A DNA stretch of 64,000 nt from positions 1-64,000 of the forward strand of contig JAUXZS010000056.1 in NCBI GenBank assembly GCA_030692515.1, read 5' to 3'. This DNA is from Bacteroidota bacterium (GTDB taxonomy: Bacteria > Bacteroidota > Bacteroidia > B-17B0 > Aurantibacillaceae). Under the pieces are notes generated by a model. That model had not been told where the DNA came from, did not search any database, and worked only from the letters and a program-made list of their open reading frames with translations. A program made the position numbers and the translations under genes. Positions 4,550 through 14,717 of this stretch are shown here, piece by piece (position 1 is the first letter of the stretch; every line of letters starts with the position of its first letter).

Positions 4550-6139
4550 GTGAAACGTAAAATTATTATAGGTACCCGCGGAAGCGATTTAGCCTTATGG
4601 CAAGCCAATTACACTAAAAATTTATTAGAGGAAAAAGGTAATGAGGTTGAAATTAAAATTATTTCAACTGCCGGAGACCACTCGCAACAATTTGAAACTA
4701 GTTTTGATAAACTAGAAGGCAAAGGTTTTTTTACAAAAGAATTAGAAGAAGCCTTGTTAAACAAATCCATTGATCTTGCTGTTCATTCTCATAAAGATCT
4801 TCCTACCGAAAGTCCGGATGGGCTATTAATAGCTGGCGTTTCTAAGCGCGAAGACCCTTCTGATATTTTAATCATAAACGATAAAGCCGCAGATGATAAA
4901 CTTAAATTTGGCTTAAAGAAAGGTGCCATAGTTGGGACTTCTTCAGCCAGAAGAAAATCGCAATTATTAGCATTTAGACCCGATGTTCAAGTAAAAGATT
5001 TACGCGGTAACGTTCCAACTCGTATTAATAAATTAAGAGAAGGTGGTTACGATGCTATTTTAATTGCAACAGCAGGTGTAGAAAGATTAGAAATTGAGTT
5101 AGATGAATTTACGGTTGAAAAATTAAATCCTGAAGTATTTGTTCCTGCACCAGCTCAAGGAGTATTAGCTTGGCAAACTAGAGAAGATGATAACGAACTT
5201 TTAACTATCATAGATGAAATAAGTGATTTTGATGTTTTAATTAAAATAAATATCGAGCGTCAATTATTAAATCTATTTGATGGCGGCTGTCATTTACCCT
5301 TTGGCGCTTATTGCGATACCGAAATGGATGACGAAGATCGTTTACGTTTTAAAGTATGGGTAAGTATTGCTCCGGAATGGAATGCACAGCCAAAACAATT
5401 TTATTTTGACACTTTAGATACCGATGGCTTTGTTGATAGAATGTACGACCACATTAAATTTGCAAAACCTAAAAAAATATTTATTTCAAAAACATTTAAA
5501 GAAGGAGATTATTTTCCATCTGCACTTGGTAAATTAGGTTATGATGTTCAAGGAAAAAGTTTAATTGAGTTTAAACAAATTGCCATTCGTTTTTTACCAA
5601 GAACAGAGTGGATATTTTTTAGCAGCAAACACGCTGTGCGATTCTTCTTTAATCAAAAACCTGAATTGTGGCCTGGTGTAAAATACGGTTGTGTTGGAAG
5701 CTCTACCAGCGCTGAATTGCGCTCGTTCGGACACCGTGCCGATTTTATTGGTCAAAGCACCGATATTAAATTAGTTGGCAAACAATTTAGCAGTAAAGTA
5801 GGTAACGCTCGTGTTTTATATCCCATTGCAAGAGGCAGTATGCAAAGTATACAATGGCAAATGGTAAAAAGAGATAGCGTAGTTAATTTAGAAGTATATG
5901 CCACATTACACCTAAGCGAAGAAATTCCAACAGAAAATGAAATCTTAATTTTTACCAGTCCAAGTAATGTAGAATCTTATTTTGAAAAAAACACTATCCA
6001 TCCGCATCAAAAAATTATTGCTATGGGCGAAGCAACCGGTAAAGCTTTAGAAAAATTAAAATTTAAAAAGTATACTATGCCAAGAAGTTTTGATGACCTT
6101 GGTTTGATTCAAGCAGTGATGGCTTTGCCTAATAATTGA
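4550..6139 (+). CDS. hemC: Fused hydroxymethylbilane synthase / uroporphyrinogen-III synthase
   Basis: The 529-residue protein carries two consecutive haem-pathway enzymes. Residues 1-300 are porphobilinogen deaminase (HemC): IGTRGSDLALWQ start, HSHKDLPT, TSSARRKSQL, LRGNVPTR and the dipyrromethane-cofactor cysteine C247 in GGCHLP. Residues 310-529 have the two-lobed pattern of uroporphyrinogen-III synthase (HemD), with 'IFFSSKHAVRFF' and 'IFTSPSNVESY'. HemC usually has about 310 residues, so this is a HemC-HemD fusion that would channel the unstable hydroxymethylbilane. The GTG start is fixed by alignment of the GTRGS motif. hemE, a later step, lies 7.5 kb away on the other strand. HemD is divergent as a family, so its call is weaker than HemC. 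Confidence 0.93.
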   Translation: MKRKIIIGTRGSDLALWQANYTKNLLEEKGNEVEIKIISTAGDHSQQFETSFDKLEGKGFFTKELEEALLNKSIDLAVHSHKDLPTESPDGLLIAGVSKREDPSDILIINDKAADDKLKFGLKKGAIVGTSSARRKSQLLAFRPDVQVKDLRGNVPTRINKLREGGYDAILIATAGVERLEIELDEFTVEKLNPEVFVPAPAQGVLAWQTREDDNELLTIIDEISDFDVLIKINIERQLLNLFDGGCHLPFGAYCDTEMDDEDRLRFKVWVSIAPEWNAQPKQFYFDTLDTDGFVDRMYDHIKFAKPKKIFISKTFKEGDYFPSALGKLGYDVQGKSLIEFKQIAIRFLPRTEWIFFSSKHAVRFFFNQKPELWPGVKYGCVGSSTSAELRSFGHRADFIGQSTDIKLVGKQFSSKVGNARVLYPIARGSMQSIQWQMVKRDSVVNLEVYATLHLSEEIPTENEILIFTSPSNVESYFEKNTIHPHQKIIAMGEATGKALEKLKFKKYTMPRSFDDLGLIQAVMALPNN

Positions 6140-6147
6140 AGCAACTA

Positions 6148-6210
6148 TTTTGTCATCCCGAAGAATGAGGGATCTCAAAACAGATTCCTACTATCGTCGG
6201 AATGACAAAA
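6148..6210. repeat. Intergenic palindromic element, possible bidirectional terminator
   Basis: The arms TTTTGTCATCCCGA (6148-6161) and TCGGAATGACAAAA (6197-6210) pair at 13 of 14 positions. Inside them GAGGGATCT and AGATTCCTA pair at 7 of 9, so the whole 63 nt can fold into one long hairpin. It lies between the convergent hemCD and phoH genes. REP-like palindromes with GTCAT...ATGAC ends are common between genes in many bacteria. A terminator role is inference. Confidence 0.65.
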
Positions 6211-6214
6211 ACTT

Positions 6215-7567
6215 TTACAGCAAATCGTTTGCTAAATTAGCCAATGCACTACGCTCACCTTTTTCTAAAGTAATGTGCGCGTACAGGCTTTGACCCTTTA
6301 CTTTGTCAATCAAATAACTTAAACCGTTACTTTGGGCGTCCAAATAAGGCGTGTCAATTTGATTAATGTCACCAGTAAAAATAATTTTAGTATTCTCCCC
6401 TGCTCTAGTAATAATTGTTTTTACTTCATGCGGTGTTAGGTTTTGCGCCTCATCAACAATAAAAAACACATTACTTAAACTTCTTCCGCGGATATAAGCT
6501 AAAGGACAAACAACTAATTTTTGAGACTCTATCATCTCAGCAATTTGTTTATGCTCTTTATCTTTTTCGCTAAACTGACTGCGAATAAATTTTAAATTAT
6601 CCCATAATGGTTCCATATATGGATTTAACTTGCTATTAACATCGCCCGGTAAATAACCAATATCTTTATTGCTTAAAGGAACAATTGGACGAGCTAAATA
6701 AATTTGATGATAATTTCTCCTTAACTCTAATGCTCCGGCAAGGGATAATAAAGTTTTTCCGGTTCCGGCAACACCTTGTATTGATACTAATCTAATGTCC
6801 TGATTCATTATGGCATCCAATGCAAACGACTGCTCTGCATTTTTTGGAATAACTCCAAATGCCGACGTTTTTATTACGCGATTAAGAGTGTCGTCTTCCG
6901 CATTATAACGGGCCATAACACTTTGAGAACCGTTTTTTAAAACATAATAATGATTTGGTAAACTCTTGTGATTTTTTAAAATAGGTTTTGCTTTGCAGCT
7001 ACCCGTATTATAGATAGCAGTAATTTGTTCTGCTGTTGCTTTAATACCTTCGGTATTTCCGGTATACAGCTCATCAATCGTTTTTATTTTTCCGGTCTCA
7101 TAATCCTCGGCATTTAAACTTAAACTTTTTGCTTTTATGCGTAGGTTAATATCTTTAGTAACTAAAACTACCTTTCTATCGGGATGCATTTCTGCAGTAT
7201 ACAAAGCCGTATTTAAAATACGATGATCAGCTTTTCTATCTGCAAAAATTCGTTCGGCGTTTATTTTAGAAGAGAAATTCATCTCTATCTTAAACATCCC
7301 TCTGTTGGGACCATTAATTCTCGTCCACTCTTGCAGAGTATTATTACCACTTAATTTATCAATATACCGAGTAAATTCGCGTGCCGAATAATTTTTGGTA
7401 TCGTTTCCCTTTTTAAAGTTATCCAATTCTTCTAAAACAGTTATTGGAATTACCACATCGTGTTCTGCAAAATTTTTAATTGCTGTGTGATCGTAAATAA
7501 TAACAGAGGTATCTAACACAAATATTTTTTTGTCGTTGATACTTGCCTTGCTAGTTCTTTTGGCCAT
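6215..7567 (-). CDS. PIN domain + PhoH-like ATPase (PhoH2-type)
   Basis: 450-residue cytoplasmic protein. The N-terminal PIN nuclease domain (about 15-150) has acidic residues in FVLDTSVIIYD and in the EELDNFK and DRKADHRIL segments. The C-terminal PhoH ATPase domain (about 225-450) has Walker A GVAGTGKT near residue 265 and Walker B FFIVDEAQN, followed by FTGDINQID. PIN-PhoH (PhoH2) proteins have been described as RNA helicase/ribonucleases in mycobacteria; the substrate here is unknown. The gene is monocistronic downstream of typA, separated by a terminator hairpin. Length and domain order are normal for Bacteroidota. Confidence 0.95.
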   Translation of the reverse strand: MAKRTSKASINDKKIFVLDTSVIIYDHTAIKNFAEHDVVIPITVLEELDNFKKGNDTKNYSAREFTRYIDKLSGNNTLQEWTRINGPNRGMFKIEMNFSSKINAERIFADRKADHRILNTALYTAEMHPDRKVVLVTKDINLRIKAKSLSLNAEDYETGKIKTIDELYTGNTEGIKATAEQITAIYNTGSCKAKPILKNHKSLPNHYYVLKNGSQSVMARYNAEDDTLNRVIKTSAFGVIPKNAEQSFALDAIMNQDIRLVSIQGVAGTGKTLLSLAGALELRRNYHQIYLARPIVPLSNKDIGYLPGDVNSKLNPYMEPLWDNLKFIRSQFSEKDKEHKQIAEMIESQKLVVCPLAYIRGRSLSNVFFIVDEAQNLTPHEVKTIITRAGENTKIIFTGDINQIDTPYLDAQSNGLSYLIDKVKGQSLYAHITLEKGERSALANLANDLL

Positions 7568-7665
7568 ATAGTAAATTAAATAACTTATGGTAAAGCTATT
7601 AATCCAAAAATGGTTTTAGCAATAAGTAATAAATTAATTTTAACAATGAATTGTTTATTTAAGCA

Positions 7666-7698
7666 AAAAGCCCTCTGGCAATTAACCAGAGGGCTTTT
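7666..7698 (-). terminator. Intrinsic terminator of typA
   Basis: A perfect 13-bp stem pairs AAAAGCCCTCTGG (7666-7678) with CCAGAGGGCTTTT (7686-7698) around a 7-nt loop, with a T-run on the minus strand. It lies just past the typA stop and upstream of phoH, so it ends typA transcription. Confidence 0.9.
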
Positions 7699-7717
7699 AA
7701 TATTTTATTGTGAACAA

Positions 7718-9529
7718 TTATTGGGCTTCTAATTTTTTACCCATGCGTTTTCTTTCGTTCTCTTCAAGATAAATTTTACGAAGACGGATATGCGAAGGAG
7801 TAATTTCTACATACTCATCACCTTGAATATATTCCATTGCTTCTTCTAAACTGAATTTAATTTTTGGAACAATACGCATTTTTTCATCAGTACCAGAGGC
7901 GCGCATATTTGTTAATTGTTTTTCAGTACAAACGTTTACTACTAAATCATCAGGACGAATGTGCTCACCGATAATCATACCGGGATAAATTTCATCACCA
8001 GCTTCGATAAAAAATTTACCACGATCTTGTAATTTATCAATACTATAAGCAACTGCCGACCCTTTATCTTTGCTAATTAATACTCCTGCAATACGACTAG
8101 GGATTGGTCCTTTCCAAGGCTCATAATCTTTAAAACGATGCGCCATAATAGCCTCACCTGCTGTGGCAGTTAAAACATTATTACGTAAACCAATAATACC
8201 ACGAGAAGGAATTTCAAACTCAATATGAGTTAAATCTCCTTTAGGTTCCATAATTAGTAAATTACCTTTGCGTTGGCTTACTAAATCAATTACTTTGCTT
8301 GAGGATTCTTGGGGTACATCAACTGTTAACACCTCAATAGGCTCACACTTTTGACCATCAATTTCTTTAATAATAACTTGTGGTTGACCTAATTGTAATT
8401 CATAACCCTCACGACGCATTGTCTCTATCAATACAGATAAATGAAGAATACCACGACCAAACACTAAGTAAGAATCAGGAGATCCTGTTTCTTCAACACG
8501 CATGGCTAAGTTTTTTTCTAACTCTTTATATAAACGATCGCGTAAGTGACGTGAAGTAACAAATTTACCATCTTTACCAAAAAACGGTGAGTTGTTAATT
8601 GTAAACAACATACTCATTGTAGGCTCATCAATATGCATGGTTGGCATACCTTCTGGATTTTCAAAATCAGCAACCGTATCACCAATTTCAAAACCTTCAA
8701 TACCCGTAAACGCACATATATCTCCAGTTGTAGCCTCAGTCACTTTAAGTTTACCTAAACCTTCAAAAACAAACAATTCTTTAATGCGAGATTTTTGAAT
8801 TCTACCATCGCGTTTTACCACACTTACTGGCATGTTTTCTTTTATAATGCCACGAAAAATACGGCCTACCGCAATACGACCTATAAATGAAGAATAATCT
8901 AAAGAAGTAATTTGAATTTGTAAAGTTCCCTCTCTTTTTGGGGCAGTAGGAATATTTTTAATAATAGTATCTAATAAATAAGTTACATCTGTAGTTGGTG
9001 TTTTATAATCTGGGCCCATCCAGCCTTGCTTACTTGAACCGTAAACAGTAGGAAAATCTAATTGATCTTCATTTGCATCAAGATTAAAAAATAAATCGAA
9101 AACATTGTCATGAACTTCTTCAGGACGACAATTTGGTTTATCTACTTTATTAATAACTAAAATTGCTTTTTTACCGGCAGCAATCGCTTTTTGAAGCACA
9201 AAACGCGTTTGTGGCATTGGCCCTTCAAAAGCATCCACTAATAAAATAACACCGTCAGCCATGTTCATCACACGCTCTACTTCACCTCCAAAATCCGCGT
9301 GACCAGGAGTATCAATAATATTAATTTTTGTTCCCTTGTATGTAACAGAAACGTTTTTCGCAAGAATTGTAATTCCGCGCTCACGCTCTAAATCATTATT
9401 ATCAAGGATAAGTTCGCCGGTTGCTTGGTTATCGCGGAACAAATTACATTGATGTAAAATTTTATCTACTAAGGTAGTTTTACCGTGGTCAACGTGGGCA
9501 ATAATGGCAATGTTTCTAATTTCAGACAT
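7718..9529 (-). CDS. typA: Translational GTPase BipA/TypA
   Basis: Ribosome-associated GTPase of 603 residues, the standard family length. The GTPase domain starts at [14 protein letters not shown] (G1), with RGITI (switch), DTPGHADF (G3) and NKVD (G4). EF-Tu-like domain 2, two EF-G-like alpha/beta domains and the TypA-specific C-terminal domain follow. TypA assists 50S assembly and translation under stress. On the minus strand a TATCTTTG box (9557-9550) lies about 20 nt before the ATG and is a good -7 promoter candidate. The gene is divergent from the ECF sigma factor gene, with 99 bp between starts. Confidence 0.98.
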
Positions 9530-9628
9530 ATTTTGTTTTTTAAGCGCCGCAAAGATACGTCTTTTATTGGTTAAAACACTTTATTACAAAGGATTATATA
9601 GATTTTTATTTCTACTTTTAACAAATAA

Positions 9629-10222
9629 TTGGAAAATAGAACTAATATTCAAAACTCTTTAAACCCAAACAAATGGGTAGAACTGTATTCGGATTATTTA
9701 TATAAATACGCCTATTACCGTGTTAATAAGGATGAATTGGCGCAGGATCTTGTTCAAGACTGTTTTTTAGCCGCTTTAAAATCTTGTGAATCCTATAAAG
9801 GAGAAGCTTCGGAAAAAACTTGGCTGGTTAGTATTTTAAAAAACAAAATTATTGATCATTATAAAAAAGCTTCAACCCGCAACGAATCTCCTCTTCAAAT
9901 AAACAGTTATAATGTTCCTTCTTACGATCATTTTTTTAATAGCAAAAAAAATGGCCATTGGCAAAGCGAAGCTAAACCTAAGAATTGGGTCGCTAATGAA
10001 AATACTTTTGATGCGAAAGAATTTCACAAAACCCTAGAAACCTGCCTTGAAGAACTGCCCGAAAAATGGAAAGGAGTTTTTACAATGAGTTTGTTAGATG
10101 ATACAGATTCAAAACTCGTTTGTAAGGAGTTTGCCTTAAGCTCGTCTAACTTCTGGGTAATAATACATAGAGCCAAATTGCAGATGAGAGAATGTCTCGA
10201 AAAAAATTGGTTACAGTTGTGA
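9629..10222 (+). CDS. ECF-type RNA polymerase sigma factor of the RiPP operon
   Basis: 197-residue sigma-70 family protein. Region 2 is at about residues 10-85 (YSDYLYKYAYYRV...LAQDLVQDCFLAAL, then TWLVSILKNKIIDHYKK) and region 4 at about 130-190 (LEELPEKWKGVF and the 'SSSNFWVIIHRAKLQMRECL' recognition segment). An unusually long linker of about 45 residues containing GHW joins them. The TTG start is the only one that includes all of region 2. The next gene, for a zinc-type anti-sigma protein, begins inside this stop codon (TGATG), so the pair is translationally coupled. The peptide precursor and maturase genes follow directly, which suggests this sigma factor controls them, as SigF does for the gig operon in Caulobacter (known example; inference here). 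Confidence 0.93.
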   Translation: MENRTNIQNSLNPNKWVELYSDYLYKYAYYRVNKDELAQDLVQDCFLAALKSCESYKGEASEKTWLVSILKNKIIDHYKKASTRNESPLQINSYNVPSYDHFFNSKKNGHWQSEAKPKNWVANENTFDAKEFHKTLETCLEELPEKWKGVFTMSLLDDTDSKLVCKEFALSSSNFWVIIHRAKLQMRECLEKNWLQL

Positions 10223-10500
10223 TGGAAGAATTAAAAGAACATACACATAAATGGTACACTTTTGGTTGTAAAGATGCTACCTACCTTACTGTTAAAGCAG
10301 ATTATGGCCCTCTTTCGTTTTCAGAAAAAATCCAGTTAGGTATTCATACGCTTATGTGCAAGTATTGCCGTCGATTTGCGCTTCAAAGTAAAAAAATAAA
10401 CGAGTTTTTAAAAATTTCGTTCGAAAAAGATAATGTAACGCTTTCTCAGATTAAAAAAGAAGCTCTAAATCAAGTGATTACAGAAAACTCGAAAAAATAA
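10222..10500 (+). CDS. Zinc-binding (ZAS/zf-HC2-like) anti-sigma factor
   Basis: Small 92-residue protein when started at the ATG overlapping the sigma factor stop; an upstream ATG at 10192 would add 10 residues and overlap by 31 bp. It has a first cysteine (GCKDAT) and then HTLMCKYC, which is the H-x3-C-x2-C zinc motif of ZAS anti-sigma factors. No transmembrane helix is present, so it is probably soluble. In ZAS proteins the zinc site can respond to metal or thiol stress and release the sigma factor, which would suit a metal-handling operon. Identity rests on the motif, size and position after the ECF gene; sequence similarity to known members was not measured. Confidence 0.75.
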   Translation: MEELKEHTHKWYTFGCKDATYLTVKADYGPLSFSEKIQLGIHTLMCKYCRRFALQSKKINEFLKISFEKDNVTLSQIKKEALNQVITENSKK

Positions 10501-10510
10501 CCAATATTTT

Positions 10511-10540
10511 TGTAAGCATTTGGAATCTATTTCGACTATA
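10511..10540 (+). promoter_or_regulatory. Candidate ECF-dependent promoter of the RiPP precursor gene
   Basis: A -35-like TGTAAG (10511-10516) is separated by 16 nt from a -10-like CGACTATA (10533-10540). These resemble ECF sigma-type elements (AAC-like -35, CGnCTA -10) rather than the housekeeping TAnnTTTG box. The 5' UTR would be about 35 nt and ends in an A-rich stretch just before the ATG, as in highly translated Bacteroidota genes. No similar pair was seen upstream of the sigma gene itself. The assignment is by eye. Confidence 0.45.
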
Positions 10541-10579
10541 ATTACGTAAATTCATATAAACCTTAAAACAAAAATTAAA

Positions 10580-10966
10580 ATGGAAAAAAAATCAGCATTA
10601 ATTACTTGCTCTATGATTGCAGGTGCTTTATTAAGCGTTTCAGCTGTTAAAGCTAACACAAACAACTTATTAAGCTACAACGGTTTGGGAACTGCCGGAG
10701 AAGTTCGTACGTCATTAGTTAAAACAATTGAATTAACTTGTGGTGAGAAAAAAGGTGATGCTGCTAAAGCAGACACTAAAACTAAGGATGCTAAGTGTGG
10801 TGAGCACAAGGCTAAAGACGGTAAGTGCGGTGAGCACAAAGCAAAAGATGGTAAGTGCGGTGAGCACAAAGCAAAAGATGCTAAGTGTGGTGAGAAAAAA
10901 GCAAAAGATGGCAAATGCGGAGAAGGCAAATGCGGAGAAAAGAAAAAAACTGAAACTCCAAAATAA
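10580..10966 (+). CDS. hvfA: Cys-rich repeat RiPP precursor peptide (HvfA/BufA-like)
   Basis: 128-residue exported peptide. A signal peptide (residues 1-25, ending SAVKA) is followed by a linker, then a core with seven cysteines each in the context CGE: one TCGE, then KCGE six times. Four decapeptide repeats of the form D-(A/G)-KCGE-(H/K)-KAK occupy residues 70-109, and the tail ends GKCGEGKCGEKK. KCGE/EGKCG motifs are the hallmark of HvfA oxazolins and BufA bufferins, in which an MNIO enzyme converts cysteines into oxazolone/thioamide or thiooxazole groups that bind copper. The maturase genes follow at once. The product is presumably periplasmic. Naming as HvfA-like is by motif and context; the actual modification is unproven. 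Confidence 0.85.
   Translation: MEKKSALITCSMIAGALLSVSAVKANTNNLLSYNGLGTAGEVRTSLVKTIELTCGEKKGDAAKADTKTKDAKCGEHKAKDGKCGEHKAKDGKCGEHKAKDAKCGEKKAKDGKCGEGKCGEKKKTETPK
10787..10921 (+). repeat. 30-bp tandem repeat array in precursor gene
   Basis: Four consecutive 30-bp units (10787, 10817, 10847, 10877) plus a half unit encode D-(A/G)-KCGE-(H/K)-KAK. Units 2 and 3 are almost identical in DNA, so the array can expand or contract by slippage in 10-residue steps. Each unit supplies one modifiable Cys. Confidence 0.9.
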
Positions 10967-10972
10967 TTAAAC

Positions 10973-11008
10973 TTAACCCCTCTTCAAAAAAGAGGGGTTA
11001 ATTTTTTT
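10973..11008 (+). terminator. Intra-operon terminator/attenuator between precursor and maturase
   Basis: A perfect 12-bp stem pairs TTAACCCCTCTT (10973-10984) with AAGAGGGGTTAA (10990-11001) around a CAAAA loop and is followed by seven Ts. The ATG of the DUF692 gene lies only 4 nt past the T-run and no new promoter is visible. Partial readthrough would give much precursor and little enzyme. Confidence 0.88.
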
Positions 11009-11012
11009 AGTT

Positions 11013-11858
11013 ATGAAGCTAATAAGCAATAAGCATATAGGTATAGGTTTTAGAAAAGATTTTTCTGAGGAACTTTTGGATTCGGATACCCTTAAGCCGG
11101 CGTTTATTGAATTGGCGCCCGAAAATTGGATTGGTATGGGGGGTTACTGGAAAAAACAATTAGATAAAGCCGCGGAAAAATATCCTATCACCTGCCATGG
11201 TTTATCATTATCAATTGGAAGTCCGGACGAATTGGATTTTGATTTCCTAAACAAAATAAAAAAATTTATTAAGCAATATAATGTGCAGATTTACTCTGAA
11301 CATTTGAGTTATGCAAAATGCGATAATGCACACTTATATGATTTGTTACCAATTCCGTTTAAAAAAGATGCGGTAAAACATATTGTTGCTCGCATTAAAC
11401 AAGTACAAGAAATTTTGGAAATGCCCTTGGCTATTGAAAACGTTTCTTATTACACACCGGTTGCTGCCGAAATGGATGAAGCAACTTTTATTTCAGAAAT
11501 CGTAAATGAATCTGGCTGTAATTTATTATTAGATGTTAATAATGTTTACGTTAATTCATTCAACCATAACTATAGCGCAAAAGAATTTATAAATAAACTG
11601 CCCCTTAACAAGGTAAGTTATATTCACATGGCGGGGCACGAACAAATTTCAGATACCGTTATTATTGATACGCATGGCCAAGCGGTCATCGAAAAAGTGT
11701 ATGAACTATTTGAGTACACAACAGCTTTAATTAAACCCGTTCCGGTTTTATTAGAACGAGATTTTAATATTCCTGAATTAGAAGAATTACAAACAGAACT
11801 TACAAGAATGGAAACGATTGTTTCTAAGACTTGGCGAAAGGAACATTCACTTGCTTAA
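11013..11858 (+). CDS. hvfB: MNIO (DUF692) RiPP maturase, HvfB/BufB-like
   Basis: 281-residue DUF692 / multinuclear non-haem iron-dependent oxidase of the TIM-barrel fold. Motifs seen in order: GIGFR, IELAPENW, CHGLSLSIG, YSEHLSY, AIENVSYY, LLLDVNNVYVN, YIHMAGH, IDTHGQ and LLERDFNIP. The His, Glu and Asp residues of these motifs are the iron ligands in characterised members (MbnB, HvfB). These enzymes oxidise cysteines in precursor peptides with a DUF2063-type partner, which is encoded next here. The gene starts 46 bp after the Cys-rich precursor and overlaps its partner gene. Family membership is very clear; the exact product chemistry is inferred from KCGE/EGKCG precursors elsewhere. Confidence 0.95.
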   Translation: MKLISNKHIGIGFRKDFSEELLDSDTLKPAFIELAPENWIGMGGYWKKQLDKAAEKYPITCHGLSLSIGSPDELDFDFLNKIKKFIKQYNVQIYSEHLSYAKCDNAHLYDLLPIPFKKDAVKHIVARIKQVQEILEMPLAIENVSYYTPVAAEMDEATFISEIVNESGCNLLLDVNNVYVNSFNHNYSAKEFINKLPLNKVSYIHMAGHEQISDTVIIDTHGQAVIEKVYELFEYTTALIKPVPVLLERDFNIPELEELQTELTRMETIVSKTWRKEHSLA

Positions 11859-12597
11859 AGAATCTACACATATTCAGCAGTCAAGATTAGCCAGCTATTG
11901 CAAAACAGGCATTAAACCCGAATTAATTGGCGTAATTGAAGAAAACCTTCATCATTATCGCCGCCTAGTTTTTAATATTGGTGTTGATACAATTGAAACC
12001 GCTTATCCTATTACTCACAGTTTTTTACCGTCTGATGTTTGGAATAAACTACTTCATGATTTTTACGCAGAACATAAATGTCAAACACCTCAGGTATGGC
12101 GAATGCCTTTAGAGTTTTATGAATATTGTGTAGAAAAAAATATTCAAGCACAATTAAACATTCCATTTTTAAATGATTTATTATACTTTGAGTGGCTTGA
12201 GCTAGAAATTCATACTATGGATGATATTGCTTATCCTCAAATTAATATCGAAGGTGACATTCTTTTAAACACAATAGCCTTGAACCCTGAGCACAAACTA
12301 ATAAAATTAAATTATCCTGTTCACATCGTTGCACCAACAGAAATGAAAGATGAGGCAGGGGATTATTTTTTATTGATGTATCGCGAAAAAGAAACTGGCA
12401 ACATTCAATTTATTGATGTTTCCATTTTATACGCTTACATTATTGAGCAATTACAAAGTGGCATTCGTTTACAAGACATTTTAGCTGAGGCAGATTCCTT
12501 ATTTCAAATAAATAATTTTGAACAATTAAAAGAACATGTTCTTATTTTTATCGACGATTTAAAAAAACGTAACTTTATTCTTGGATTTTTAAACTAA
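11818..12597 (+). CDS. hvfC: DUF2063 RiPP maturation partner (HvfC/BufC-like)
   Basis: Partner protein of the MNIO enzyme. The N-terminal DUF2063 domain (about residues 15-125) shows 'RLASYCKTG', 'LHHYRRLVFNIG', 'ETAYPITHSFLP' and 'YFEWLELEIH'. The C-terminal half is a winged-helix-like region seen in HvfC proteins, which bind the precursor and deliver it to the oxidase. The frame is open from an ATG at 11818, overlapping the maturase by 41 bp. A TTG at 11851 with GAAAGG 10 nt upstream overlaps by only 8 bp and may be the true start. Either way translation is coupled to the maturase, which fits 1:1 complex formation. Confidence 0.9.
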   Translation: MFLRLGERNIHLLKESTHIQQSRLASYCKTGIKPELIGVIEENLHHYRRLVFNIGVDTIETAYPITHSFLPSDVWNKLLHDFYAEHKCQTPQVWRMPLEFYEYCVEKNIQAQLNIPFLNDLLYFEWLELEIHTMDDIAYPQINIEGDILLNTIALNPEHKLIKLNYPVHIVAPTEMKDEAGDYFLLMYREKETGNIQFIDVSILYAYIIEQLQSGIRLQDILAEADSLFQINNFEQLKEHVLIFIDDLKKRNFILGFLN

Positions 12598-12602
12598 AAA
12601 AC

Positions 12603-13049
12603 ATGATAAAACTATACTTCAAAATCAGAGCCATATTAAACAACGCGCAAGACTTGCCCTTATTATTTTTACGTTTAATATTAGCCTATGGCTTTTGGGA
12701 ACCTGCTAAAATGAAATGGGCGGATATTAACGGAATTGCAGAATGGTTTGATAGCATGGGTATTGTTGCGCCAAAGCTAAGCGCTTACCTTGCAGCATCT
12801 ACAGAAATGGCCGGTGTATTTTTATTGATTTTTGGTTTAGGTACGCGCATAATAAGTATTCCATTAATAATTACTATGCTGGTTGCCATTAAAACCGTGC
12901 ATTGGGAAAATGGTTTTGCATCATCAGATAATGGATATGAAATTCCATTATATTATATGCTGATGCTTATAACGCTTTTATGTTTTGGTCCAGGGAAAAT
13001 AAGTGCGGATTATTTTATTGGTAAAAAAATGAGAAACTTTCTTAGCTAA
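12603..13049 (+). CDS. DoxX-family membrane protein of the RiPP operon (HvfX/BufD-like)
   Basis: 148-residue inner-membrane protein with four predicted helices (about 15-35, 60-82, 86-100, 115-130) and DoxX-type motifs: 'LRLILAYGFWEPAKMKW' in helix 1 and 'EMAGVFLLIFGLGTR' in helix 2. It begins 5 bp after the DUF2063 gene and closes the operon. DoxX proteins are regular members of Hvf/Buf/Gig clusters, although their job in maturation, redox supply or export is not settled. The 3' end overlaps the convergent Rossmann-fold gene by 8 bp, so the operon ends here. Confidence 0.9.
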   Translation: MIKLYFKIRAILNNAQDLPLLFLRLILAYGFWEPAKMKWADINGIAEWFDSMGIVAPKLSAYLAASTEMAGVFLLIFGLGTRIISIPLIITMLVAIKTVHWENGFASSDNGYEIPLYYMLMLITLLCFGPGKISADYFIGKKMRNFLS

Positions 13050-13680
13050 TTTTATCCGACTCAACAATAACTTTTCCTGTTAAATTTTCGTTAGCAAGCT
13101 TTATCATTGTTTTTGCAATACTACTTGCCTTAACACCTTTGTATTTTTTTAATCCTCCTATAAAAAGTGGACTTAATAATTTAAACAAAACAACTCCAAT
13201 TTTTTCTCCCAATCTAAATTCTTTTCTATCTCCAAGAATTAAAGATGGACGAATAATTATAAACGTTTCAAAATTTAAATCAGAAATTTTTTCTTCTAAG
13301 TCGCCTTTTGTTTTTAAATAAAAATTAGACGATTTTGCATCGGCACCCAAAGAAGAAACTAAAATAAATTGTTTTACATTATTTCGCTTTGCAATTTGTG
13401 CTATCTTAAATGGGTATTCGCAATCAATTTTATATTGATTTTCCTTTGAACCAGCCTTTTTTATTGTTGTGCCAATCGCACAAAAAATATCATCTCCCTT
13501 AATTATTGAAGCATCGATGTTATCAAAATCAATAATTTTTTCTTCAATTTTTAAGTGGTTTAGCTCAGACTTTCGCCTCACCAACAAAATAATTTTTGAA
13601 TAAAATTTAGAGTCGTTAAGTTGATTTACCAAATTGCTTCCTACTAAACCTGTTGCGCCAACCACTAAAGCTGTTTTCAT
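13042..13680 (-). CDS. NAD(P)-binding Rossmann-fold oxidoreductase (HTATIP2/TIP30-like)
   Basis: 212-residue atypical short-chain dehydrogenase. The N-terminal nucleotide-binding motif GATGLVGSN is at residues 8-16. 'FCAIGTTIKKAGSKE', 'FILVSSLGAD' and the Y-x3-K catalytic pair in FYLKTKGDLE follow, then 'IIIRPSLILGDR'. This pattern matches the NAD(P)H-binding family that includes human TIP30/HTATIP2 and bacterial YbjT-like proteins. Substrate unknown. It lies 11 bp downstream of hemE on the same strand, so the two are probably co-transcribed, but no haem role is known. Confidence 0.85.
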   Translation of the reverse strand: MKTALVVGATGLVGSNLVNQLNDSKFYSKIILLVRRKSELNHLKIEEKIIDFDNIDASIIKGDDIFCAIGTTIKKAGSKENQYKIDCEYPFKIAQIAKRNNVKQFILVSSLGADAKSSNFYLKTKGDLEEKISDLNFETFIIIRPSLILGDRKEFRLGEKIGVVLFKLLSPLFIGGLKKYKGVKASSIAKTMIKLANENLTGKVIVESDKIS

Positions 13681-13691
13681 AATTTTTAGTT

Positions 13692-14717
13692 TTACTTCCA
13701 GCTGTAATCTTTAACTACATCAACAAAAAACTTTACTTTTTCTTTATCAATATCAGGATATAAGCCATGCCCCAAATTACAGATGTAGCGTTGTTTTCCA
13801 AACGCGCTTAGCATTGCTTGAGTTTCTTCTTTAATTTTTTTCTCGCTAGCATATAATAAACAAGGGTCGGCGTTGCCTTGCAATGTTTTATTTCCGGCAA
13901 GATTTCTGGCAACTAGCGGGTTGATTGTCCAATCAAGGCCAATAGAATTACAGCTGGTTTCAGAAATTTTTTGAACAGCATAATGCGCATCTTTTGCAAA
14001 AACAGTTATGGGAACTAATGGCGATAAGGCGTCGCAAATTTTTGAAATATACTTTAAAGAAAACTCATAAAACATTTGTTCACTTAAAACACCAGCCCAA
14101 GAATCAAACAATTGCAAAATATCAGCGCCTGCAGCAACCTGGCCTTTCAAATAATTAATAGTACTTAGGGTTATTTTCTCTAACAGTTGATGAGATAATT
14201 CTGGCTGGGTATATAAAAATTGTTTGGCTTTGCTAAAAGTTTTGCTTCCGCTTCCTTCAATCATGTAAGCAAATAAAGTCCATGGAGCACCAGCAAAACC
14301 AATTAAAGGCACGCGGTTGTTTAATCCTTTTTTAGTTAGTTTAAGAGCTTGCATTACATAATCTAAATCTCCTGCATCGGCAATTTTTAAATTATCAATA
14401 TCTGTTTTGTTTTTAATAGTATTCTCAAACCACGGCCCTTTTGCCTCTATCATTTGATAAGGTAAACCCATTGCCTCGGGAATAACCAATATATCACTAA
14501 AGATTATTGCAGCATCAACGCCTAAAATATCCACTGGTTGAATGGTAACTTCACAAGCCAAGTCAGGCGTTTTAACAAACTCTATAAAGTTTTTTGCTTT
14601 TGCTCTTGTTGCCCTGTATTCCGGTAATATTCTTCCGGCCTGGCGCATTAACCATACAGGCGCGCGCTCAACATCCAATCCTTTGGCTGCTCTTAATAAT
14701 AAATCGTTTTTTAACAT
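13692..14717 (-). CDS. hemE: Uroporphyrinogen decarboxylase
   Basis: 341-residue cytoplasmic enzyme that decarboxylates uroporphyrinogen III to coproporphyrinogen III in haem synthesis. Family motifs are plain: '[16 protein letters not shown]' near residue 21, '[14 protein letters not shown]', '[17 protein letters not shown]', 'LFDSWAG' and the C-terminal '[10 protein letters not shown]'. The substrate-binding Arg and the Asp of FSDI are present. Length is normal. It follows the product of HemCD functionally but is not in the same operon. Confidence 0.97.

Follow-up and report, generated by a model that had tools for sequence, protein, structure and literature searches.

In Neisseria meningitidis, the extracytoplasmic function (ECF) sigma factor sigmaE is encoded at NMB2140-2145 together with the zinc-associated anti-sigma (ZAS) factor MseR, a DoxX protein and three then uncharacterised proteins. 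The genes of this locus are cotranscribed under autoregulation, and control by sigmaE extends to msrA/msrB (PMC2893595; PMC3240639). The neisserial sigmaE consensus is GTMAGBWTT-N12-13-CGTCTAAH (PMC2893595). The gonococcal counterpart makes gonophorin, which contains 5-thiooxazoles and bound copper on expression with CuSO4 (PMC13097082). In Haemophilus influenzae, RpoE2 and the 67-residue ZAS protein HrsE control msrAB and a DoxX-precursor-DUF692-DUF2063 cluster after hypochlorite (PMC7907618). A six-gene operon of this kind is located at positions 9629-13049 of the window, i.e. the whole analyzed stretch of 64,000 nucleotides from a Bacteroidota bacterium (assembly GCA_030692515.1, contig JAUXZS010000056.1). 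It is quite probably a captophorin operon of the HvfA/gonophorin kind, in which the sigma factor drives the promoters of the peptide and of repair genes and exerts negative feedback through a promoter embedded in its own gene.

A proven precedent for such wiring is the SigH/RshA pair of Corynebacterium glutamicum, which has a ZAS anti-sigma factor and is linked to thiol stress. The sigma gene is expressed from housekeeping promoters. The anti-sigma gene has an additional promoter that lies within the sigma coding region and depends on the sigma factor, with transcription starting 62 and 66 nt upstream of the anti-sigma gene (PMC3489674). Its promoter sequence differs from that in the window, it has no ribosomally synthesized and post-translationally modified peptide (RiPP) and no cross-genome codon constraint is described in the available part of that account. 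The listings of the literature search surfaced no second case of this wiring. In Caulobacter, the ECF sigma factor SigF likewise controls a RiPP cluster with a multinuclear non-heme iron-dependent oxidase (MNIO), DUF2063 and DoxX. This cluster (bufferin 1) has a DUF2282 precursor and the anti-sigma factor NrsF (PMC12452194; PMC3511200), whereas the operon in the window has a KCG precursor and a soluble ZAS protein. For Buf1 clusters, sigma and NrsF genes are described in the survey of Antoine et al., which in its available part names no regulator for EGKCG clusters (PMC12452194). The copper-responsive ECF sigma factor SigAb of Acinetobacter was rejected as a counterpart, its direct regulon being different. 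The RiPP class and its control by a sigma/ZAS pair are thus known from Pseudomonadota. No publication on this operon in Bacteroidota was found in open-licence PMC, and words starting with "bacteroid" are absent from the main text of both the MNIO survey and the captophorin paper. PMC12636315 names Bacteroidota 16 times and, in its available part, concerns ChrH-type MNIOs.

The features of the operon are the following:

9613-9620, plus strand: TACTTTTA, directly 5' of the sigma start, with a weak resemblance to the Bacteroidota housekeeping element TAnnTTTG
9629-10222, plus strand: ECF sigma factor (SIG), 197 aa, TTG start; open reading frame (ORF) and hidden Markov models (HMMs), the nearest NCBIfam model being TIGR02943 (under its cut-off)
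10122-10148, plus strand: promoter-like element GTAAG-N16-CGTCTA in the region 4.2 codons of the sigma gene (TGT AAG GAG ... TCG TCT AAC); conservation and codon tests
10222-10500, plus strand: soluble ZAS-type anti-sigma factor with C16, H42, C46 and C49; ATG start by homology, longest ORF from 10192
10512-10538, plus strand: sigma-type promoter GTAAG-N16-CGACTA before the precursor gene; family motif and conservation
10580-10966, plus strand: RiPP precursor (PRE), 128 aa, with a signal peptide (by eye), a leader with LGTAGEVR and 7 Cys
10973-11001, plus strand: terminator-like hairpin in the gap between precursor and MNIO genes, 12-bp stem followed by T7 (-17.5 kcal/mol, z -4.1)
11013-11858, plus strand: MNIO maturase (DUF692, HvfB family); HMMs and PDB entry 3bww (E=1.5e-71)
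11851-12597, plus strand: PME1 partner protein (PME; DUF2063 and NGO1945_C), probable TTG start at 11851, longest ORF from 11818; HMMs and PDB entry 3dee (E=1.1e-5)
12603-13049, plus strand: DoxX-family membrane protein (HvfX); HMMs

The operon shares with its neisserial counterpart the six gene kinds (gonococcal locus L265, one record), a soluble ZAS protein with identical Cys/His spacing, the promoter and the KCG precursor. Msr genes are common to both, with MsrA/MsrB in the Neisseria regulon and an msrB promoter in the organism of the window. In Neisseria, the order is DoxX-PRE-MNIO-PME-SIG-ZAS, a promoter stands before all genes and the feedback is positive; the gonococcal SIG has no embedded element. 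In the window, on the other hand, SIG and ZAS come first, the promoter is internal and a putative anti-sigma promoter is embedded in the sigma gene; the putative regulon of the organism also takes in a CPPC protein. As in the sigmaE-MseR and RpoE2-HrsE systems, a sigmaE consensus promoter occurs together with an msr gene in the regulon, here by sequence only. Haemophilus has a homologous cluster (hvf by family) under an ECF/ZAS pair, with a cytoplasmic 67-aa anti-sigma factor and co-regulated msrAB (PMC7907618; PMC13419390). Judged by locus tags, regulators and cluster lie apart there, whereas they form one operon in the window. The precursor cysteines are mostly 10 residues apart in the window, compared to 5 within the AEGKCGEGKCG motif of Haemophilus. 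The original prediction had set the regulator pair apart from SigF-NrsF. Since the same parts with a soluble ZAS protein are published for Neisseria (PMC2893595) and Haemophilus (PMC7907618), such a pair is already known. Novelty seems to lie in the control region instead, with a putative promoter before the precursor gene and not before the sigma gene, plus the candidate anti-sigma promoter; this layout has strong backing from sequence comparison.

The embedded element codes for the residues C-K-E-F-x-x-x-S-S-N of region 4.2. It ends 73 nt before the ATG of the ZAS gene, and the median distance to the ORF start across loci is 74 nt. Among 23 SIG genes of the organism's own family, its -10 and -35 columns show the strongest codon bias among 89 conserved columns (-10, TCG in 20/20 with a background of 0.118; -35, AAG in 23/23 with a background of 0.17). 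The same two columns lead 172 columns in 38 independent SIG genes, a set that excludes 15 named loci of the same family. The third base is G in 34/38 genes at -10 and in 38/38 at -35. Codon-bias G is 80-86 for these columns and about 4.6-5.0 for the median column. At the -10 column, 33 of the 38 genes have an NCG codon, with a variable residue (P14, S13, A8, T2, E1). Scores of at least 10 of 11 are reached by the embedded element in 59/61 loci, compared to 3.0 expected from synonymous resampling, and the full score of 11 in 36 loci (0.27 expected). The codon and resampling tests left out L045, L055 and L056 (other gene order) and L051 (truncated SIG). Furthermore, the embedded element varies together with the precursor element across 55 pairs (p=2e-4, without correction for phylogeny), and a K-to-Q change in the sigma factor is accompanied by GTCAG in the precursor promoter in three of four loci. 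The element is missing in L045, L055 and L056, where SIG lies behind the precursor promoter, and in the three Pseudomonadota sigma genes compared (two nearly identical; the gonococcal gene is included). It is kept in 8/10 SIG-ZAS loci with no MNIO gene seen beside them, one of which is cut directly behind ZAS. Mere protein conservation is disfavoured by the codon tests; the simplest reading of the sequences is that the anti-sigma gene is transcribed from this element in a sigma-dependent manner.

Before the precursor gene, the family-wide motif is GTMAG-N16-CGWMTA. Of the 59 ZAS-precursor gaps (two of the 61 loci have no usable gap), 49 contain it with a score of at least 10 of 11, compared to 0.72 expected from shuffled gaps. 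Outside the family it is found in 28/38 loci with SIG beside. Related sequences stand in front of the Pseudomonadota clusters: the gonococcal GTCAG-N16-CGTCTA starts 62 nt before the DoxX ORF, GTAAT-N16-CGTCTA precedes the precursor gene on Acinetobacter and Moraxella plasmids and GTAAT-N16-CGACTA precedes an Acinetobacter DoxX gene. Upstream of SIG the sigmaE-type motif is absent in 27 loci, the best score within 200 nt being 8-9 of 11; a promoter before the sigma-containing operon, as for positive autoregulation in Neisseria style, was accordingly not found in these sequences. The precursor promoter stands before SIG in the PRE-first loci L045, L055 and L056 (score 9-10). TAnnTTTG is the consensus of the Bacteroidota housekeeping promoter element. 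TACTTTT[AG] occurs near the sigma start in 13/27 SIG loci, and a scan for housekeeping sigma-70 promoters was uninformative (15 found, 15.8 expected). The sequence TACTTTTA weakly suggests that the sigma gene may be expressed from a housekeeping promoter.

In a scan of the whole genome, the pattern has seven matches. Four of them are sensibly placed, one within the sigma gene and the others ahead of the precursor gene, msrB and the gene of an exported CPPC protein. The matches in C11, C41 (C41:271548) and C55 were dropped as they lie inside other genes, and so was a C58 match of the first pattern. At msrB (L066), the motif starts 34 nt before the ATG. Its -10 element ends only 7 nt before this codon, and a leaderless msrB transcript may result. 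An msrB promoter with a score of at least 10 of 11 is present in 21/32 genomes with SIG and in 3/31 genomes without it (p=3.9e-6). The contrast is clear in genus g1 (13/17 and 1/22, respectively). This count covers 63 of 79 genomes with msrB, 16 of genus g10 being left out, and uses HMM-based SIG labels. Second msrB copies of G004, G013, G049, G067 and G077 were omitted (scores 7, 9, 8, 8 and 8); the kept G049 copy scores 11. The CPPC protein (G000:C50:85820-86842, minus strand; L101/L140) is exported and thioredoxin/Omp28-like as judged by eye, and has a perfect sigma-type promoter. All seven orthologs with at least 63% identity score 11, and all come from genomes with SIG. None of the homologs L148-L162 reaches a score of 10. 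For msrA (L065), a regular-expression search of the whole locus on both strands showed no motif and membership in the regulon was rejected. MsrB in the regulon repeats the logic of Neisseria and Haemophilus, which argues for an oxidative envelope stress signal.

By analogy to the described systems, the zinc-bound ZAS protein would hold the ECF sigma factor in unstressed cells. Oxidation of its Cys/Zn site by hypochlorite, disulphide stress or perhaps Cu would free the sigma factor, which would then read the GTMAG-N16-CGWMTA promoters before the precursor gene, the exported msrB and the exported CPPC protein. The MNIO and its partner would turn the KCG cysteines into 5-thiooxazoles, after which the peptide would be exported by the Sec route and bind copper in the envelope. 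As the layout suggests, the hairpin behind the precursor gene may keep the precursor in excess over the enzymes. The sigma factor would also read the promoter in its own region 4.2 codons and yield more anti-sigma factor, while itself staying outside its own control. As it would drive its own inhibitor and not itself, negative feedback and a pulse-like response are expected, a different shape from that of the Neisseria circuit. It is rather likely that across Bacteroidota and Ignavibacteria the region 4.2 codons of the ECF sigma factor contain a promoter which the factor itself reads to make its anti-sigma factor. In this proposal, the constraint on the DNA limits the residues of the helix-turn-helix (mostly NCG codons) and turns a positively autoregulated envelope regulon common to several phyla (captophorin, MsrB and a thiol protein) into one with negative feedback, and the module also stands beside other exported Cys-rich or thioredoxin-like proteins without an MNIO. 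If so, one stretch of DNA encodes a DNA-reading helix-turn-helix and also the promoter which that helix-turn-helix reads. With operon, regulator and promoter all recurring in Bacteroidota, this envelope stress regulon would be shown to be common to several phyla. The occurrence in Bacteroidota also offers cultured hosts for study (Chitinophaga); the operon is present in the cultured soil bacteria C. polysaccharea (L200) and C. arvensicola (L196).

Several observations weigh against this proposal. The reversed control of the genome scan gives 16 matches compared to the seven found, so single matches mean little without position and conservation. Scores below 10 are found for 10 of the 59 precursor promoters and 2 of the 61 embedded elements, and the precursor motif is also present in 6/24 loci outside the family without SIG beside. 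The msrB motif is missing in 11/32 genomes with SIG, it is present in three genomes in which no SIG was found (G001, with a completeness of 78%; G014, 99%; G054, 84%) and genera g7 (3/4 with and 1/2 without SIG) and g9 (4/5, no genomes without SIG) contribute no contrast. Of the CPPC orthologs, two have 47-49% identity and come from genomes in which no SIG was found; the one of G001 scores 10 and that of G018 has no motif. The motif was initially derived by eye from the family precursor promoters, and the tests on SIG, msrB, the CPPC protein and loci outside the family came later. The reported p-values take no account of phylogeny, and the promoter elements are predicted from sequence. Meningococcal sigmaE expression was unchanged by oxidative stimuli (PMC2893595). 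The bulbicupramide gene products were undetected on copper, and the authors were hesitant to call it protective (PMC12538549).

Genome G001 also holds another MNIO cluster (L031, G001:C792) with a long exported-looking Cys-rich protein, an MNIO and the start of a possible partner gene. This MNIO has an HvfB-like Pfam score, yet only 3e-69 to the family model. L031 was rejected as a contig-cut captophorin locus because it has another MNIO type and 2.1 kb of upstream sequence with no SIG. G001 is thus counted as an exception, which lowers the confidence slightly.

The operon might be a plain Bacteroidota copy of the Neisseria/Haemophilus system, with the embedded element as a side effect of codon usage and common descent in the conserved CKE..SSN helix-turn-helix. 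The element does lie in a conserved protein motif, the loci are related and the statistics are not corrected for phylogeny. However, the family background of both codons is low, the -10 residue varies while its codon remains NCG, the median column is far less biased, the element pairs covary, GTCAG mostly accompanies the K-to-Q change and the element is missing in L045, L055 and L056. This explanation is quite unlikely. Positive autoregulation as in Neisseria, through a deviating promoter upstream of SIG to which the embedded promoter merely adds, has parallels in the autoregulated neisserial operon (PMC2893595) and in L045, L055 and L056, which have the precursor promoter ahead of SIG. With nothing above 9 of 11 within 200 nt upstream of SIG in 27 loci, compared to the high scores of most precursor gaps, this arrangement is unlikely as well.

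As to the signal, copper or another thiophilic metal could act directly on the Cys/Zn site of the ZAS protein, oxidant repair being secondary. Captophorins bind Cu (PMC13097082), gold and copper elicit a response of the GIG operon in Legionella, and SigF of Caulobacter responds to heavy metals. The promoters before msrB and the CPPC protein and the induction of the Haemophilus cluster by hypochlorite through RpoE2 (PMC7907618) speak against a direct metal signal, which is less likely than not. The original prediction had read the operon as a copper- or metal-stress system. Metal stress is retained as one candidate, but thiol or oxidative envelope stress is at least equally indicated by the related systems and by the promoters before msrB and the CPPC gene. 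A copper-acquisition chalkophore like methanobactin shares the MNIO superfamily with this operon (Pfam MbnB_TglH_ChrH). The MbnB model, however, gives 60.9 bits with a cut-off of 325, compared to 385 with a cut-off of 360 for HvfB. The DUF2063 partner, the Sec signal peptide, the stress sigma factor and the lack of an importer-like gene among the six genes also argue against a chalkophore, which is highly improbable.

All six ORFs predicted on the plus strand are confirmed. The ATG of ZAS at 10222 overlaps the TGA stop of the sigma gene, and the gaps are 79 nt (ZAS-precursor), 46 nt (precursor-MNIO) and 5 nt (partner-DoxX). Pfam matches (bits/cut-off) are Sigma70_r2 58.8/24, MbnB_TglH_ChrH 338.1/25, DUF2063 51.1/27.2, NGO1945_C 35.5/27 and DoxX 73.8/23.6; Sigma70_r4_2 is marginally below its cut-off (24.3/25.7). 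The NCBIfam models HvfB (385/360), HvfX (124.3/80), the anti-sigma family NF052368 (51.2/50) and KCGExKCG_twice (30/19.5) pass their cut-offs. Those of HvfC (122.3/142), the HvfA equivalog (27.8/95) and TIGR02943 for the sigma factor (151.8/162.2) do not. With HvfC and HvfA below their cut-offs, the genes are relatives filed in the captophorin class and not orthologs of HvfA and HvfC. The assignment to captophorins is consistent with an HvfB-type MNIO beside a DUF2063 (PME1) partner and with the matches to PDB entries 3bww and 3dee, the latter being gonococcal NGO1945, to which the partner protein is matched by sequence. Thus, the original prediction was correct in calling this an MNIO-type operon of the DUF692/DUF2063/DoxX/KCG kind with short gaps or overlaps, and with its own ECF sigma factor and soluble zinc-motif anti-sigma factor unlike SigF-NrsF. 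Of the domains it named, DUF692, DUF2063 and DoxX were recovered and zf-HC2 was not, as Pfam has no match for the ZAS protein. Overall, the operon belongs to a known class, as an ordinary and well-supported member from a phylum that has received less study.

The residues C16, H42, C46 and C49 are invariant in 26/26 aligned ZAS sequences. Their spacing (26-4-3) is identical to C4-H30-C34-C37 of MseR and C11-H37-C41-C44 of RsrA as printed in PMC2893595. Among 65 ZAS proteins, HxxxCxxC is present in 64 and the exact Cys spacing in 56. The ZAS protein of the window has no membrane-like segment (maximum 19-residue hydropathy 0.43; range for the 65 proteins -0.18 to 1.82). It has no NrsF match in Pfam or NCBIfam and matches NF052368; its sequence has no significant match in the PDB. 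The predicted model (predicted local distance difference test, pLDDT, 84.5) has four helices. Foldseek found no fold match at E<=0.001, and VIA-align gave a weak match to SigE-ChrR (pdb entry 2q1z; Z 3.0, root-mean-square deviation 10.2, 76 residues).

The precursor carries six KCGE motifs and one TCGE motif after the signal peptide, mostly with a 10-residue period (Cys73, 83, 93, 103 and 113, then 118). A Sec signal peptide and repeated Lys-Cys-Gly motifs are characteristic of captophorins, and both are present here (the signal peptide by eye). Between signal peptide and KCG core lies a leader motif like LG[ST]GxxVR, whose strict form is found in 73/90 precursors; it is a candidate docking or recognition site for the DUF2063 partner. 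A hairpin similar to that behind the precursor gene is present in 35/84 precursor-MNIO gaps, compared to 0.7 expected from shuffled gaps. Rfam has no match at the gathering threshold within 9400-13200.

The family survey covers 87 genomes of the organism's own family. The MNIO family is present in 32/87 genomes at 44 places, and SIG (E<=1e-25) in 34/87. From the 43 places other than the window, 32 loci were fetched. The order is SIG-ZAS-PRE-MNIO in 23 of them (two cut by contig ends inside SIG or MNIO) and PRE-SIG-ZAS-MNIO in three; one has no SIG, one is cut before MNIO and four have other MNIOs. In a scan of GTDB contigs, whose figures refer to the best 80 named loci and are not a census, SIG-ZAS-PRE-MNIO-PME is found in 52 loci, 31 of these with DoxX. 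These include Chitinophaga, Marinilabiliaceae, Carboxylicivirga, Phaeocystidibacter and also Ignavibacteriales. Most of the other loci among the best 80 have PRE-MNIO-PME without SIG. The recurrence in both sets indicates that the order is no accident, and by these sequences the SIG-ZAS-PRE-MNIO order is widespread in Bacteroidota.

At ten further loci (L253-L262), the SIG-ZAS module has no MNIO gene beside it; six of these adjoin small exported Cys-rich or thioredoxin-like proteins (by eye). Ten family genomes (G001, G005, G011, G015, G016, G024, G034, G046, G057 and G067) hold a longer MNIO-family protein of another type, with frames of 322-401 aa and 105-129 bits; in nine of them it is the second match. 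In the window, typA-like, phoH-like, hemC/hemD-like and hemE-like genes surround the operon (4550-14717, by eye from translations). On a plasmid of Moraxella sp. DOX410 (L267), a gene for an IS4-family (insertion sequence) transposase lies between the MNIO and partner genes. The N. gonorrhoeae records NZ_CP119142.1 and NZ_CP119140.1 (2.17 Mb) are filed as plasmids and, by size, look like chromosomes.

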